DNA of 64,000 nucleotides. Origin: Alphaproteobacteria bacterium. GTDB taxonomy: Bacteria; Pseudomonadota; Alphaproteobacteria; UBA8366. The translations under genes and the position numbers were made by a program. Every line of letters starts with the position of its first letter. Positions within the stretch are counted from its first letter, which is position 1. Under the pieces are notes generated by a model. It was not told where the DNA came from, made no database searches, and saw only the letters and a list, made by a program, of their open reading frames with translations. Of the stretch, positions 7,743 through 56,103 are shown in pieces. The DNA is taken from assembly GCA_028281325.1 (NCBI GenBank), contig JANQKC010000005.1, positions 62,001-126,000 of the forward strand. Direction: 5' to 3'.

Positions 7743-8921
7743 ATGCCTTCAGATTTAGCGCCGTATGCGAGCGATCCAGAGGCCAGCCGCGGACGGCTTC
7801 GGGCGGAGCCTGAAAGCCCCACACGGACGTGTTTCCAGCGCGATCGCGATCGGATTATTCACTCCACCGCCTTGCGCCGGCTCATGCATAAAACCCAGGT
7901 CTTCGTCTCGCCGGGCGGCGACCATTTCCGCACCCGGTTGACCCATAGCCTGGAGGTTGCGCAGGTCGCCCGCGGCTTGGCGCTCAATCTCGGCCTGAAT
8001 CAGGATTTGGCGGAAGCGCTGGCGCTGGCCCATGACTTCGGTCATCCGCCTTTTGGACATGCCGGCGAAGAAGCGCTCGACGAGGTCATGCGGCCCTTCG
8101 GCGGGTTCGACCACAATGATCAAACCTTGCGGATCGTCGTCCGGCTGGAACAGCGCTACGCGGCGTTCGACGGCCTGAACCTGACCTGGGAAACGCTCGA
8201 AGGACTGGTGAAACATAACGGGCCGCTAACGGGGCCGCATTCGGACGGCGCGCCGCTGCCGGAGACGATCGCAGGCTATACCGAGCTGCAGGATCTGGAA
8301 CTGGAAAGTTTTGCCGGACCGGAAGCGCAGGTCGCGGCGATCGCCGACGATATCGCCTATGACAATCACGACGTGGATGACGGACTGCGGGCCGAGGTTT
8401 TCACCATCGATGAGCTTTCCGCCGTTCCGCATGTGGCGGCGGCGATCGACCGCGTGCGCCGGCGGCATCCGCGACTCGAACGGCATCGGTTGAGCCATGA
8501 GGCGGTGCGAAGTCTGATCGACGCCATGGTCACCGATGTGTTGGAGGAGACTCGCGCGCGGTTAGCCGCGGCGTCGCCGGCGTCCGCAGCCGACATCCGC
8601 GCACTCGATCAGCCGGTCGTTGCCTTCTCGCCCGCAATGGTTCAAAAGGACCGCGCCATAAAGAAGTTCTTGTTTGGGAATATGTATCGCCATCCCGACG
8701 TCTTACGGGAGACGGACAAGGCGCGAAAAATCGTGAAGGATTTGTTCCGCCGCTTTGTCGAGGATCCTGCGTCGATGCCCGACGAATGGTCCGTCCTGGC
8801 GGCGGCGTCGGGAAGCGGGGAGACCGCGCGTGTTGCGGCGGATTACATTGCGGGCATGACCGACCGCTACGCCAAACGGGAACATGCGCGGCTGTTTGGA
8901 GCGAAGGAAGTGTCGACGTGA
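7743..8921 (+). CDS. dgt: Deoxyguanosinetriphosphate triphosphohydrolase-like protein
   Basis: A 392-residue HD-domain dNTPase that hydrolyses dNTPs to nucleoside and triphosphate. The metal-binding HD signature is seen at His68 (RLTHSLEV) and His97-Asp98 ([12 protein letters not shown]), with a further Asp in [11 protein letters not shown]. The N-terminal block [20 protein letters not shown] is characteristic of the family. ATG at 7743 was chosen over an in-frame TTG at 7701. Its stop overlaps the argS GTG start by 4 bases (GTGA), so the two are translationally linked. Confidence 0.93.
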
Positions 8922-10672
8922 ATCTATTTCGGGACATGCGGGACAAGGTCGTCGCCGCCATTGGCGCGTTGGGCGCGGAAGGCGTCTTGCCGGCCGATCT
9001 GGACACGGCGCGTCTTTCGGTCGAACCGCCGCGCGACGCGTCGCATGGCGACATGGCGACGAACGCCGCCATGGTCCTGGCCAAGCCCGCCAAGATGAAA
9101 CCCCGCGATATCGCCGACGCGCTGGCGGAAAAAATCGCCGCGTTGCCCGATGTCGCCGCGGTCGATGTGGCAGGTCCGGGTTTCATCAACATTCGCCTGG
9201 CTGACGCCATTTGGTGCCGTTCGGTTGCGACGATTCTCGAACAAGGCACGGAGTACGGACGGTCCACGGTCGGCGCGGGGCGGGCCGTCAATGTCGAGTA
9301 TGTCTCGGCCAACCCGACCGGTCCGCTGCATATCGGACATGCGCGCGGCACCGTGTTCGGCGACGTCCTGGCGTCCCTGCTGGAAACCGTCGGCTATGAC
9401 GTGTGCCGCGAGTATTACATCAACGACGCCGGGGCGCAGGTGGACGTGCTCGCGCGGTCCGCCTATCTGCGCTACCGCGAGGCGCTGGGCGAGGATATCG
9501 GCGAGATTCCAGAAGGCCTGTACCCCGGCGATTATCTGCAATCGGTCGGCGCGGCGCTGGCGGCCGAAGACGGCGACAAATGGTTGAGTGCCGAGGATTC
9601 CGATTGGCTGCCGCGCGTTCGGGACCATGCCGTGGAGGCGATGATGGCGCTCGTCCGGGACGACCTTGCGGCCGTGGGCGTGTCGCACGACGTCTTCACC
9701 TCGGAGCGCAAACTCGTCGAGGCCGGCAAGGTGGCCGAAGCGTTCGACCTGCTCGAGTCGCGCGGACTGATCTACACCGGCACGCTGGAGCCGCCCAAGG
9801 GCAAGCTGCCGGACGATTGGGAAGCGCGGCCGCAGACCTTGTTCCGGGCGTCGGATTTCGGAGACGATATCGATCGCCCGTTGAAAAAATCGGACGGGAG
9901 CTGGACCTACTTCGCCAGCGACATCGCCTATCATCTCGACAAGTATCAGCGCGGGTTCGCCAATCTGATCGACGTTCTCGGCGCGGATCACGGCGGCTAC
10001 GTGAAACGCATGCAGGCCGCGACGCGGGCGATCACGGAGGACAAGGCCGATCTGGACGTGAAACTCTGCCAGCTTGTCCGCCTCATGGACAAAGGCGAGC
10101 CGATGAAAATGTCCAAGCGGGCGGGCACTTTCGTGACGTTGCGCGACCTCGTCGACGAAGTCGGCAAGGATGTGGTGCGTTTCATCATGCTAACGCGCAA
10201 GAACGACGCCGGTCTCGATTTCGATCTGACCGCCGTGACCGAACAGTCGCGCGACAATCCGGTCTTCTACGTGCAATACGCCCACGCGCGCAGCCATTCC
10301 GTGATGAGGATGGCGAAGACCGCTATGCCGGGCATCGATCTGTCGGATTCGGCGTTGCAGGCGGCGGAGTTGGACCGCTTGACGGACGAATCCGAGCTTG
10401 CTCTGATCCGGGCCATGGGAAACTGGCCCCGCACCGTAGAGGCCGCCGCCGAAGCCCATGAGCCGCATCGGCTGGCCTTTTACCTCTACGATCTCGCGTC
10501 GGCCTTCCATGGCCTTTGGACCAAGGGTAAGGACGACGCCACGCTGCGTTTCATCATCGAGGATGACGTGGCGCTGACCACCGCACGGCTGGCGCTGGTG
10601 CGGGCCTTGCAAACGGTCGTGGGAGCCGGGCTGCGCATCTTCGGCGTCGATCCGGTCGAGGAGATGCGATGA
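8918..10672 (+). CDS. argS: Arginyl-tRNA synthetase
   Basis: A 584-residue class I aminoacyl-tRNA synthetase charging tRNA-Arg. The HIGH motif is at 138-141 ([13 protein letters not shown]) and the KMSK motif at 397-400 (PMKMSKRAG). The N-terminal tRNA-contact domain and the C-terminal DALR-type anticodon domain ([14 protein letters not shown]) are present. The true start is GTG 8918 with AAGGA at 8903-8907, overlapping dgt; longer in-frame openings lie inside dgt. Its stop overlaps the next ATG (ATGA). Confidence 0.96.
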
Positions 10673-51445: not shown

Positions 51446-52505
51446 CTATTGATCCGGCATCGTGCGGGGTTGCTTTCCGTCCGCGATACGCTGGATGTCC
51501 TCGAAACGGTCGCGGGGCATGGGGATGCCTATTTCGAGCGTTTCCGCCATGCTTTCCGCCTCGGGCTCGCCCGGAATCAGGACCGGCAGGTCGGGATCGG
51601 CGGCCGGGGTCGCCTTGATCGCCCGGCAGAATGTCTCCATCTGCTCGTAATAGGTTTCCTCGCCGAGCAGGCGGGCCGGATCCAGGGCGATGAAGAAATG
51701 CGCGACCCCTTGCGGCATCGCGTCGCGGCGGAAAAGTTGATTGACGCCGGTCGCCGTGTGGCCGCCGGACAGCACGCCCGACAGCATATCCACCGCCAGC
51801 GCCAATCCATAGCCTTTATGGCCGCCGATCGGCAGGACCCATCCCTTCATTCCCGCAAGCGGATCGGTCGTGACACGCCCCTTCGCGTCCGCGGCCCAGC
51901 CTTCGGGGATTGTTTCGCCGGCTTCGTGGGCATGGCGGAGCTTGCTGAACGCCACCACGCTCTGCGCCATGTCCAGGATGAACGGCGGCTTGTCCCGGCG
52001 CGGGGCGGCGATGCCGATGGGGTTGTTGCCGTGGGCGAGGGCGGCGCCGCGCCAGGGCGCCATGACCGGCTGGGTATTCGTGCCCATGATGGAGACCAGG
52101 CCGGCATCGCAGGCGCGCGCCGAATAGGGGGCGACGGGGCCGAAATGATGGCTGTTGCGGCACCCCACATAGGCCATGCCGCTCTCCTTGGCCAGCCGGA
52201 TGGCGGCAGCGACGCCGCGGCTGCCGATCACCGGTCCCAATGCCGTTGCCGCCATCGATGACCGCCAGGCAGGGCGACCGCTCGTCGACCGTAATCTCGG
52301 GGTCGGCGACGATCGCGCCGTCGAGAATGCGCTGACAGTAGATGATGACGCGGCGGGTTCCGTGGGTGCTGATTCCCATCAAGTCGCCGACCACCAGGAT
52401 ACCCGCCGCCGCGTCGGCATCGTCCGCGGGTACGCCGACACGTTCGAAGGCGGCGCGGCAAACGATATGAAGGTCGTCTTTCGGAATTCGGATGATGTCG
52501 GTCAT
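51446..52505 (-). pseudogene. Ldh2-type malate/L-lactate dehydrogenase broken by a +1 frameshift
   Basis: Two overlapping frames make one gene. The start (MTDIIRIPKDDL, ATG 52505) runs through VGDLMGISTHGTRRV to AVIDGGNGIG. There one extra base near 52235 shifts the frame. The rest continues in another frame as PVIGSRGVAAAIRLAKESG and ends at 51446. Removing that one base (coding-strand A after GGG) restores G-I-G-P-V-I-G-S-R. The family is the NAD(P)-dependent Ldh2/YlbC/DlgD type. The C-terminal frame is intact and could be translated from an internal start. A sequencing error is equally possible. Confidence 0.85.
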
Positions 52506-52586
52506 TTCGGTCTTCCAAGGCGGGAAACGGTCCGAAAGGCTATGCAATCGATTCCGGCGACGCAAGGCGAGACGCCGGATGAAGAA

Positions 52587-52609
52587 CGGGCCCCATCGAT
52601 AGGGGCCCG
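52587..52609 (-). terminator. Hairpin downstream of the VWA lipoprotein gene
   Basis: An 8-bp stem, CGGGCCCC (52587-52594) with GGGGCCCG (52602-52609), then TTCTTC on the minus strand. Short U-tract, so a weak terminator. Confidence 0.55.
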
Positions 52610-52646
52610 CAAGTGGGTCGGAATTTTCTTGGAAGTCCGGGAGTGG

Positions 52647-53297
52647 CTAGTTCAACAAAACATGGTCCAATCGGTCGAGATCGTTGATCACCTGCCAGGC
52701 GCCGCCGCCGGATTCGACTCGGCTTTGCCAATTGTTCAGGCGGTTCAGGTAATCCCGCGGATCGACGTTGTCGCTGCCGAGCTTCGTGACGTTGAGCGCC
52801 ACGACGTTGACCCCGTCGAGCGGCAAGGAGATGTCGCGGATATAGCCTTTCTTCAAATCCTCGGCGAGGTCCGAGAAGATGAGGATCGTCTTGTTGCCGG
52901 GATTCTTCTCGGTGAGATACTCGGAAGCCTGCAACAAACCGCCGGTGATATCGGTGTACCGGGCCGGACGGACTCCCTTGACGAAGCTGTTGATCGCATC
53001 GCGGAACTGGCGTTTTTCCTTGTTCGCGACGCTGGGGCGATCGTCGAAGGTCGCCTTGGCGACGATGTCCTTCTCGCTGAAGCTGCCGGTATCGATCCGC
53101 GCGACCGCGAAGGAATCGCCCGGATCGAGACGCGTCAGGATCACGTTGATGATCTGCTGCGCCTTCCGCAGTTCCTCGGTATAGGTCCCGGACGTGTCGA
53201 GCAACAGGTAGACGCCGCGGTTCTGCGGCCCTTGCTCGGAGCAGGCGGCGAGCGCCAGCAGTCCCAGGGCCGCGATACAGGCGGTTAGACGGTTCAT
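52647..53297 (-). CDS. VWA-domain lipoprotein
   Basis: A 216-residue exported lipoprotein, lipobox LAAC (Cys19). A von Willebrand A domain follows with the MIDAS-type motif D-T-S-G-T at 34-38 and a later TDITGG threonine. A second part reads KTILIFSDLAEDLKKGY. Its ATG overlaps the TAA of the upstream membrane-protein gene (TAATG), so both are made together. It probably binds a partner through a metal ion; the obvious partner is that membrane protein. No named family recognised. Confidence 0.83.
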   Translation of the reverse strand: MNRLTACIAALGLLALAACSEQGPQNRGVYLLLDTSGTYTEELRKAQQIINVILTRLDPGDSFAVARIDTGSFSEKDIVAKATFDDRPSVANKEKRQFRDAINSFVKGVRPARYTDITGGLLQASEYLTEKNPGNKTILIFSDLAEDLKKGYIRDISLPLDGVNVVALNVTKLGSDNVDPRDYLNRLNNWQSRVESGGGAWQVINDLDRLDHVLLN

Positions 53298-54739
53298 TAC
53301 AGCACCTCTCTTGCTGTTGCCGGGTCGTGGCTGTTGCGCATGTCGGCGGTGTGCGCCTTGATGCGCCGTTCGAGCCATAGCGGCAGGAAGATGATCATGT
53401 CGTACAGGTCGATCAGGATGGCGGCCATGTGATGGAACACGCTGCCCAGGAGCCGCAGGAAAAGCGCGAGCGCCCGCATCAACGCGCCGCCGGCGAGACC
53501 CAGCACGGTGCGGAGCGAGTGTACGAAGGTTTCCAACGGAATGGCGACGAAGACCAGAGCGAAGGGCAGGATGAAGCCCATGCCCATTTGGGCCGCCGTG
53601 GTGATCCACACGAAGTTCGTGGCCTCGACCGCGACGCTTTCCGACCCACGGAGCAAGGCGCTCGTGGCCAATTCGTCTTCCAACAGGATTTCCCGCATAT
53701 AGGCGAGGCCGGCCTCGACGCTGGCCAGCAGGAACAGGATCGTGAAGGTGATCCAGATCATGCGGACGCGCATCTTATCCGGCAACGCGCTGATAACCGG
53801 GAAAAGCCGCGTGATCCGGAGCGATTCCATGAGGAACAGGCCCATGGAAATCTCGACCATGATGATGACCAAGGCGGCGATATCGGAAATCTTGAAGGCC
53901 CCGATCATGTTGTTCCCGCCGACCATCTCGGCCATCGGTCGGGCGATCAGGTGGAAATTGATCATCGCGCCTCCGATGGCGATCGCCAGCACCAGCGCCG
54001 ACACGAAGAACTGCACCAGCGATGAGGACGACAGCATACGGGCCGCGCGGTCGGACCCCTGGAGGATGTTTTCGTATTCCTCCATATGGCGGTCGATGAC
54101 CTTTGCGCGGTGCAGCAGAGAGTTGACGTTCTTGTCGACGGATGAGAGCTGCTGCTGAATCTTGCGCCAGTGCGGCAGCATGTTGCGCAGGAATTGATGC
54201 CGCGCGCGCGTTGCGTCGCGATACTGGTCGCGCGCTTTTTGCTGCGCTTCCACCAGGGATTCGTGGATTTTATCCAGGATGTTCGCGACCATCGGATCGC
54301 CTTTGGACGGAATGTTCGCGACCGCCTCGACGGCATGCGCCCATCCCGGCGGCGTCGGCGGCACCTCGGAACTCTTTTGGTGATCTTCCTCGACGTTCGA
54401 AATCTGTTCCTCGATCTTGCGCTGCAGGGCCGGGCACTCGGCCAAGTCCCGCCGCACGGCCGCGTCCATCCGGTCGAACTCACGCTCGATAATGCGTTCC
54501 GCGGCTTCGCGGCCGGCGGCAAGCAGGACCTCGCGGTTCCGCTCCGTCATGCGTTTTTCCGCCTTGAAGACCGAATGCGCGGCGAGGCGCATCGTCGCGT
54601 GCAGAACGCGGCACAGCGACAGGATGGCGCTATGCGCCGGGGCCCTGGTCAAATACAGGGCGATGACCGCAAGCAAGATAACGGTCAGCCAAGTCAGAAT
54701 CGATCCTGACCCCGCCGACAGCGTGTTGAAGATCGGCAT
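53297..54739 (-). CDS. Multi-span membrane protein with a long coiled-coil domain, unknown function
   Basis: A 480-residue protein. One N-terminal helix (14-30) is followed by a 210-residue charged, helical region (about 45-235; REAAERIIEREFDRMDAAV, EQISNVEEDHQKSSEV), probably a coiled coil. Then come about five to six helices (around 243-265, 284-306, 326-347, 376-403 and 411-455). GGAGGGG sits 7 bases before the ATG at 54739. It is translationally coupled to the VWA lipoprotein gene. The architecture suggests a sensor or scaffold spanning the inner membrane with a lipoprotein partner. No homologue recognised. Confidence 0.78.
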   Translation of the reverse strand: MPIFNTLSAGSGSILTWLTVILLAVIALYLTRAPAHSAILSLCRVLHATMRLAAHSVFKAEKRMTERNREVLLAAGREAAERIIEREFDRMDAAVRRDLAECPALQRKIEEQISNVEEDHQKSSEVPPTPPGWAHAVEAVANIPSKGDPMVANILDKIHESLVEAQQKARDQYRDATRARHQFLRNMLPHWRKIQQQLSSVDKNVNSLLHRAKVIDRHMEEYENILQGSDRAARMLSSSSLVQFFVSALVLAIAIGGAMINFHLIARPMAEMVGGNNMIGAFKISDIAALVIIMVEISMGLFLMESLRITRLFPVISALPDKMRVRMIWITFTILFLLASVEAGLAYMREILLEDELATSALLRGSESVAVEATNFVWITTAAQMGMGFILPFALVFVAIPLETFVHSLRTVLGLAGGALMRALALFLRLLGSVFHHMAAILIDLYDMIIFLPLWLERRIKAHTADMRNSHDPATAREVL

Positions 54740-55206
54740 TGTTTAACCCCTCCATGACCGATCGATCGAGACCGCTAGGCCGCCGCTCGCCGGTCACCCT
54801 CCGTCATTCCCTGGCCGAATGATTGGCCGCTATCGATAACAATTCGTTAATTAAAACTAAGGTTTCGTTAATTTTCTGGTTAATGTATTCGCCTAAGTAT
54901 TCAGATACTTAAAGTAATTTCTCTATGCCGGTTCATAATTACTGGCGTGTTTTGAATGAAGACGGTCCCATGCCTTAACGGCGACAATAAGGCGAGACTA
55001 CGGCGGGAGCGAGGATTGGCCGATCGATAGTATTTCCGTTCGAAATACTTTTGAAACCGGCTTATGGGAGGGCGGGGAGCCAGCGTGCGGATACCGGTTC
55101 CCCGGCGGTTTTCGCCGTGTTTGAAGGTAGGGTCGGCCGGCCAAGCCGCCAGTGCATTGGATCGTCGCTCGGATAGCGGCTTCAGCGTCGATCTGTTTGC
55201 TGAAGC
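54740..55206. other. Non-coding 467-base gap with an AT-rich stretch and two small palindromes
   Basis: No supported gene. From about 54836 to 54915 the DNA is strongly AT-rich, with repeated CGTTAATT/GTTAA words, likely the promoter region of the coiled-coil membrane-protein gene. AGTATTTC (55029-55036) and GAAATACT (55042-55049) form an 8-bp palindrome with a T-run. GGCTTCAGC (55178-55186) and GCTGAAGCC (55199-55207) form a 9-bp hairpin overlapping the stop of the hydrolase gene. Confidence 0.6.
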
Positions 55207-56103
55207 CTAGCCGGACATCTTGGCCGTGGGGCGGTTCGGTAGCGTGTCCAGAAACTCGACGATGGTATCGACCACGCCGTCTTCCTTTTGAAACGGCTGG
55301 GCGATTTCCAAGAGGATGCCGATGTGGCCGACATCCTCGAGTTCGACATGCCGGACGGGCACCCGCGCTGCCTTCAGTTTCTGGGTCAATTCGGTCGAGT
55401 TCTCCGGCCATACGGTGGTGTCGTCGCGGCCATGGATCAGCAGCGACGGCGCTTGTCCAGGCCTTACGAAGGTGATGGGTCGGGCCTCGTCCGGGTGTTT
55501 GACGGTCTCGAAAACACCGCGCAGGCTGACGTATTTCAGGGGATCGAAGTAATACGGGCCGGCGAGCCCCACGAGAGCGGCGATCGAGGCCATCGGCACC
55601 TCCGCCTCGGCCAAATACCGCTTGTCATACGCCAAGAGCGCCGCGATATGCGCCCCGGCCGAATGACCGGCCACGACGATGCGGTTGGGATCGCCGCCGA
55701 ATTTGGAAATATTCTTGCGAACCCATGCGACCGCCGCCGCGGCGTCCTGGACGAAGGCGGGGAAGCGTACCTCGGGATACGTGCGATAGTCCGGCACCAC
55801 GGTGACGTAACCGCGGGACGCAAATGCCTGACCCGCGAACCGGTAGTTCTCGCGCTTGCCGCGCTTCCAACTGCCGCCGTAGAAGAAGACCACCACCGGT
55901 TTGGCGCCATCTACGGCGTGCGGCTTATAGACGTCCAACTTTTGCCGCGCCTGCGGCCCATAGGAGATACCGCTGGTGCGCTGATGATCGTCCTCCGGCA
56001 CGAGGGCATTGATCGCCGACATCGGCGAGCAACCGGGGATCACGAAGAGGGCGGCAGCCGCGAGGCCGACGCGCATATGTTGCAGAGAGTATGTCATCAG
56101 CAT
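55207..56103 (-). CDS. Alpha/beta-hydrolase lipoprotein (BD-FAE / esterase type)
   Basis: A 298-residue exported hydrolase. A lipobox-like IPGC places Cys25 as the anchor. The oxyanion motif is YGGSW (75-79), the nucleophile Ser148 is in AGHSAGA, Asp227/228 in GRDD and His260 in VGHIG complete the triad. The fold is the kynurenine-formamidase / carboxylesterase type. The start is one of several close ATGs (56103, 56097, 56076); none has a clear ribosome site. Substrate unknown; an ester or amide is likely. Confidence 0.85.
   Translation of the reverse strand: MLMTYSLQHMRVGLAAAALFVIPGCSPMSAINALVPEDDHQRTSGISYGPQARQKLDVYKPHAVDGAKPVVVFFYGGSWKRGKRENYRFAGQAFASRGYVTVVPDYRTYPEVRFPAFVQDAAAAVAWVRKNISKFGGDPNRIVVAGHSAGAHIAALLAYDKRYLAEAEVPMASIAALVGLAGPYYFDPLKYVSLRGVFETVKHPDEARPITFVRPGQAPSLLIHGRDDTTVWPENSTELTQKLKAARVPVRHVELEDVGHIGILLEIAQPFQKEDGVVDTIVEFLDTLPNRPTAKMSG

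Follow-up and report, generated by a model that had tools for sequence, protein, structure and literature searches.

What do two tightly coupled genes encode when the pair recurs across classes of bacteria and matches no named system? The pair lies on the minus strand of a 64,000-nucleotide stretch of an alphaproteobacterial contig, the whole of which is referred to here as the window. Based on open reading frames and translation, gene 1 (53297-54739, 480 aa) encodes a polytopic membrane protein with a long, predicted cytoplasmic helical hairpin, and gene 2 (52647-53297, 216 aa) encodes a lipoprotein with a VWA fold. The initial annotation had noted a one-base overlap between them, which the ORF coordinates bear out, since the base at 53297 belongs both to the gene-1 stop codon and to the ATG with which gene 2 begins. 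Compared with the nearest relative (L002), dN/dS was 0.095 for gene 1 (0.055/0.58) and ~0.07 for gene 2 (0.041/0.60); purifying selection acts on both genes. Because dN/dS is low in both and the pair recurs across classes, the pairing is not a product of chance.

The window's genome carries a single copy of the pair. A non-coding stretch of ~470 bases in which no neighbouring gene was recognised (54740-55206, no strand assigned) lies upstream of gene 1 and likely contains its promoter; no sigma-70-type promoter match was found in 52450-55250. Given this gap and the dehydrogenase-like frame (named by eye) that comes next downstream, the two genes look like an operon of their own. The dehydrogenase-like gene (51446-52565, minus strand) is broken into two frames, 51446-52255 and 51816-52565, and its L002 counterpart is a single frame of 352 aa (8258-9316); the split is a frameshift or an assembly error.

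A scan of GTDB genome contigs yielded 146 relatives, and 80 loci were retained. Gene 2 directly followed gene 1 in all 80 fetched loci, and the genes overlapped in 52 of the 78 loci with a readable gap, by 4 bases in 41 of the 52. Among 369 sampled gammaproteobacterial genomes, a gene-1 homologue adjoined 48 of 49 gene-2 places. These counts strongly support the view that the two genes form a unit and agree with the initial annotation, which had described the genes as coupled and had proposed, as a check, asking if they are conserved together across genomes. The one exception is a gene-2 homologue (G839:C56:9327-9782) with no detected gene 1; G839 is a relative of G1038, and its gene 1 may be too divergent for detection.

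Gene 1 was present in 51 of the 369 gammaproteobacterial genomes (one class draw), in 16 of 78 genomes of the class of G453, taken as Zetaproteobacteria (Mariprofundaceae locus L031), and, with the window's genome included each time, in 2 of 289 genomes from the class to which the window belongs and in 7 of 59 near relatives. Strains of Microbulbifer, Steroidobacter and Thiohalophilus are among the carriers. At one locus of the G453 class (L113, G338:C7), both genes look decayed, with gene 1 fragmented and six TGA codons within one match. For a more divergent set, 20 loci were fetched and two orders were searched with a wider profile (27/54 and 15/115 genomes). Some gene-1 homologues stand solo, and others adjoin a gene for a lipoprotein or secreted protein with a decayed MIDAS. 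Two gene-1 homologues per genome were seen in G986, G795, G973, G1052, G1056, G1101, G1106, G1141 and G1195; in several two-copy genomes, one copy is accompanied by an intact VWA gene and the other is solo or has a decayed partner.

Gene 1 passed no Pfam, NCBIfam or PADLOC cut-off; its weak matches were mostly to coiled-coil or membrane stretches and, for models with a curated cut-off, scored far below it. Foldseek returned no PDB structure for gene 1 at E<=0.001 (the best, at E 0.1, was an SMC coiled coil), and a sequence search of the PDB with the gene-1 family (A1) reached a best E of 0.073. VIA-align gave Z scores of up to 9.7 with unrelated helical proteins, which may reflect a common arrangement only. 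Kinship with MotA/TolQ/ExbB (PF01618) was rejected when hhalign compared A1 with 14 proteins of the MotA_ExbB family taken from related genomes and gave a probability of 0.7% over 24 columns; the window protein itself has no Pfam match. A literature search limited to open-licence papers found none on the pair. For the Pfam, NCBIfam and PADLOC libraries searched, neither gene belongs to a named system, in line with the initial annotation, which had recognised neither as one. Gene 1 defines a new family of membrane proteins whose partner is a VWA lipoprotein, and the pair is a variant form of a known kind, a VWA protein with a membrane partner. The family is conserved, ranges over Gamma-, Zeta- and some Alphaproteobacteria, and is represented by no Pfam or NCBIfam model.

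The patchy spread of the pair (51/369 gammaproteobacterial and 2/289 alphaproteobacterial genomes, the window's own counted) would suit defence or mobile-element cargo. However, identity of about 60% is maintained across classes with many invariant residues, no worthwhile PADLOC family was found (best E 0.0046, over a coiled-coil stretch), and the pair had no match among 72,556 plasmid records, 50,697 phage records or viral contigs. We regard a role as cargo as very improbable.

Gene 2 begins with a signal peptide carrying the Cys box LAAC. Among 47 aligned members, the lipobox cysteine C19 (53241-53243), MIDAS motif 1, D34-T-S-G-T38 (53184-53198), the MIDAS residues T115-D116 (52950-52955) and the MIDAS aspartate D143 of FSD (52869-52871; all minus strand) were invariant; homologues with a decayed motif 1 form a separate set. 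The MIDAS residues DxSx(S/T), T and D are therefore complete (D34, S36, T38, T115 and D143 in 47/47), in keeping with the earlier description of gene 2 as a lipoprotein with a D-T-S-G-T metal-site motif. The AlphaFold model adopts a VWA fold (mean pLDDT 87) that VIA-align matched to many VWA and integrin-I domains with a Z of about 15 over about 160 residues. Gene 2 scored below the Pfam gathering thresholds for VWA (PF13519/PF00092; 23.8 bits vs 27 and 21.4 vs 23.8), and 39 of the 47 members had a VWA_2 match at E<=1. Taken together, gene 2 is a lipoprotein with a putative metal-binding MIDAS.

In the enterobacterial +2 rule, a residue other than Asp after the lipobox cysteine leads to export to the outer membrane. 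The +2 residue among the 47 members is S, G, A, T, N or E and never Asp, which predicts an outer-membrane location, beyond the reach of short inner-membrane loops. The VWA domain begins about nine residues past the lipobox cysteine and must therefore lie close to whichever membrane anchors it. The +2 residue thus argues for the outer membrane, while the partner-linked membrane residues of gene 1 described below would argue for the inner membrane.

Gene 1 has five clear membrane helices and a doubtful C-terminal one, so "about six helices," as first proposed, was a fair count. TM1 spans residues 13-30 (54650-54703, minus strand, as are all gene-1 features) by hydropathy and as a helix in the structure model. 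It is followed by the coiled-coil-like hairpin (residues 32-228, 54056-54646), whose long model helices, 32-124 and 149-227, make up about 200 residues, close to the 210 initially annotated. Model and hydropathy place TM2 at residues 238-266 (53942-54028), TM3 at 284-306 (53822-53890), TM4 at 323-347 (53699-53773) and TM5 at 377-400 (53540-53611), and a long hydrophobic or amphipathic helix runs up to about residue 456 at the C-terminus. Charge is positive after TM1 and between TM3 and TM4, and residues 348-376 are acidic; based on this pattern and the positive-inside rule, the hairpin is predicted to face the cytoplasm, and loops 267-283 and 348-376 the periplasm. The structure model as a whole is of medium confidence (pLDDT 77, pTM 0.52).

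Each of four helices carries one conserved polar residue on its conserved face, namely N261 in TM2 (53957-53959), the putative buried glutamates E296 in TM3 (53852-53854) and E342 in TM4 (53714-53716), and Q384 in TM5 (53588-53590), at 6°, 15°, 0° and 32°, respectively, from that face. The conserved-face moment was strong in TM2 and TM4 only; in TM3 and TM5, shuffling showed it to be non-significant (573 and 825 of 5000 shuffles). An arrangement in which each helix places a single oxygen-bearing residue on its packed face would resemble a cation- or proton-handling site.

The identity of these residues was compared with the state of the partner gene across the gene-1 family. The 218 raw matches gave 182 distinct homologues, and 175 were classified after dropping four at contig edges and L043, L085 and L014, whose VWA gene is truncated, masked or frameshifted; these last three all retain E296, E342 and Q384. 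A MIDAS-core partner adjoined 138 homologues, a decayed partner 9, and 28 were without a partner. In five partners (L177, L185, L186, L214 and L216), MIDAS position 38 is D, E or N; these were moved from the automatic non-MIDAS class to the intact class because D34, S36, S/T115 and D143 remain. Four decayed partners, those of L190 and L192-L194, were identified by visual inspection of the neighbouring ORF.

E296 and E342 were both kept in 138/138 homologues with a MIDAS-core partner, in 0/9 with a decayed partner and in 0/28 without a partner. Taken singly, in the same order of classes, E296 was kept in 138/138, 5/9 and 2/28, E342 in 138/138, 1/9 and 6/28, and Q384 in 137/138, 2/9 and 6/28. 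E271, which lies in the predicted periplasmic loop after TM2 (53927-53929), tracked any partner, intact or decayed (137/138, 9/9 and 4/28). When the automatic classes alone were used, both glutamates were present in 133/133 intact, 8/13 non-MIDAS and 0/32 no-VWA homologues, with the 8 consisting of the five moved and the three dropped cases. Gene 1 does occur alone, which speaks in part against the initial annotation, since that had named homologues occurring apart as a refutation, but there the buried glutamate pair has been lost.

In the raw sequences, the TM3 and TM4 cores were never both acidic in a partnerless or decayed-partner homologue, so the loss is not an alignment shift. As a control for divergence, all 11 intact-partner homologues with only 22-30% identity to the window protein kept E296, E342, Q384, N261 and E271, whereas 37 other homologues at 22-41% identity kept these residues in 7, 7, 8, 12 and 13 cases, respectively. 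R32, L155, L184, R324, Y446 and D447 were conserved with or without a partner. Partner-linked positions fell mainly in the periplasmic half of the membrane helices (Mann-Whitney p 1.3e-4, 34 conserved positions), with the outer and inner labels having been set by hand from hydropathy segments after the data were seen and the retention values rounded; a Fisher p-value that disregards kinship was given no weight. A recent loss was apparent in G440, where the gene directly after gene 1 is GDPD, whose Microbulbifer counterpart follows the VWA gene; here E296 is replaced by Q, and N261, E271, E342, E350 and Q384 are unchanged, with A289 and R308 also differing among the 22 positions checked.

On a tree built without the tested columns, there were four independent contrasts between intact and not-intact partners on well-supported, starred branches and five on the best tree, so that only four to five losses count as independent. 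The glutamate pair went the same way in all four or five, although the sign test (p 0.125) falls short of p<0.05 because there are only four pairs. The association of E271 with partner presence was weaker, with about 2.4 of 4 contrasts agreeing and the rest showing no difference. Several partnerless rows sit on long branches and their placement is unsure. Partnerless homologues also evolve fast, and relaxed selection could strip the glutamates without any ion function. Overall, the MIDAS core and the putative buried glutamates are retained or lost jointly in the homologues compared, which suggests a functional link between the metal site and the intramembrane acidic residues.

We propose that the two genes are more than an ordinary pair and probably encode an envelope machine that has not been described before. 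Gene 1 would span the membrane about five times and extend its long helical hairpin into the cytoplasm, with the lipid-anchored VWA protein on its periplasmic face touching the E271-containing loop and the ends of TM2 and TM4. Since it tracks any partner, E271 fits docking; E296 and E342 follow the state of the metal site and would fit a functional coupling of the MIDAS to the buried site. N261, E296, E342 and Q384 probably come together to form a buried site for a cation or proton, because each sits on the conserved face of its own helix; metal-dependent docking or movement of the VWA domain would then open, load or sense this site, and a change there would reach the cytoplasmic coiled coil. 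Physical contact, the inner-membrane location, ion or proton coupling and the signal to the coiled coil are what we infer from the conservation patterns. We assign a probability of roughly 0.45 to the reading that the two proteins form one inner-membrane complex in which the MIDAS and the buried site work as a single device coupled to the coiled coil. More tentative is the idea that they represent a new class of two-part machine, in which a lipoprotein MIDAS gates an intramembrane cation or proton site and drives or signals through the hairpin, with solo homologues having lost the buried glutamates and kept only a cytoplasmic function. Against an ion-based reading, no third gene or phenotype ties the pair to ion transport.

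The same residues could instead serve structural docking only, with the glutamates and polar residues stabilising helix ends that hold the VWA protein so that the pair acts as a scaffold or landmark and no ions are moved. VWA and MIDAS domains mostly mediate protein binding, and the long coiled coil would suit a scaffold; moreover, according to PMC9512821, localisation of McaA in magnetic bacteria uses an intact MIDAS. However, E296 sits some 10-12 residues deep in TM3, where a periplasmic domain could not touch it, and homologues with decayed partners keep E271 in 9/9 cases and the glutamate pair in 0/9, which would make docking and the buried site separate features. Docking alone appears unlikely, if the strongest of the alternatives. 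Less likely still is a sensor of envelope stress or divalent cations, in which MIDAS occupancy would report periplasmic Mg2+, Mn2+ or Ca2+ and gene 1 would relay this through its coiled coil to a cytoplasmic partner. Such a sensor would account for the metal-site motif, for the acidic residues buried in the membrane and for a cytoplasmic coiled coil in which some positions are conserved whether or not the partner is present, but there is no signalling domain and no conserved regulator adjoining the pair. The envelope sensor or scaffold first suggested for this locus is therefore possible but not the best reading; partner-tracking residues in the periplasmic half, including the putative buried glutamates, point more to a cation- or proton-coupled or metal-gated complex.

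The neighbouring genes gave few further clues. No third gene was common to more than 10 of the 80 loci, and no AAA+ ATPase was recognised beside the pair in the window or as a conserved neighbour in the 80 loci. The largest neighbour groups were FliA (10/80), DUF1249 (9), a SPOR/Sel1 protein (7), an AAA/FHA protein (7) and GDPD (5 loci), with gene calls in one neighbourhood analysis coming from a home-made codon score and being rough. In one family, the gene after solo homologues (L201, L202, L204, L206, L207 and L209, and L199) is a TetR-like regulator (named by eye), and L159 and L162 lie near secF-like genes (named by eye).

The FliA sigma-factor gene is located just upstream of gene 1 in L004, L009, L013, L014, L016, L020, L021, L023, L028 and L033, and in five of these loci it belongs to a cheR-cheD-cheB-fliA run; a check against NCBIfam covered three of the ten FliA genes, with which the others cluster. 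Most FliA loci have DUF1249 and a SPOR/DamX-like gene after the pair. FlhA was also more frequent in gene-1-positive gammaproteobacterial genomes (28/36) than in gene-1-negative ones (18/40), the latter chosen by handle number, with seven listed as unmatched by name and the other 33 presumed unmatched. These associations would be expected of a flagellum- or chemotaxis-associated factor, but genome size and kinship confound the FlhA comparison, 8 of the 36 gene-1-positive genomes lack FlhA, and the other 70 loci have no FliA neighbour. Flagellum-less carriers mostly refute a flagellar role as the general function, and we consider such a role improbable.

The pair could reveal how bacteria use a VWA domain to control a site embedded in the membrane, and because an extracytoplasmic metal site and buried glutamates are kept or lost together, it leads to directly testable single-residue predictions.

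Among known systems, MotA/TolQ/ExbB/ZorA resemble the proposed complex in working principle only, having buried acidic residue(s), a membrane pair and long cytoplasmic helices, the last of which are found in ZorA; in contrast, there is no profile relation, and the pair has no peptidoglycan-binding partner of the MotB/TolR type. CglB is a VWA outer-membrane lipoprotein and a surface-exposed adhesin of the large Myxococcus gliding machine. By description, CglB is like gene 2 a VWA lipoprotein with a MIDAS motif, whereas the pair is a two-gene unit with a putative inner-membrane partner of no known family. A functional MIDAS motif is also described for a further bacterial protein, Bd0875 of Bdellovibrio. 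RavA-ViaA, whose RavA is a MoxR AAA+ ATPase, likewise involves a VWA protein acting with a partner at the inner membrane (PMC9489729); however, ViaA is cytoplasmic and needs the AAA+ ATPase, and the pair has no such conserved neighbour. McaA/McaB, which positions magnetosomes in Magnetospirillum, is similar in that a MIDAS-bearing VWA domain, periplasmic at the inner membrane, is needed for function and is paired with a second membrane protein (PMC9512821). A single McaA chain contains the VWA domain, a TM and a cytoplasmic tail, and one TM is predicted for McaB, whereas here the VWA domain is a separate lipoprotein and gene 1, likened to McaB by description only, is polytopic with putative buried glutamates.
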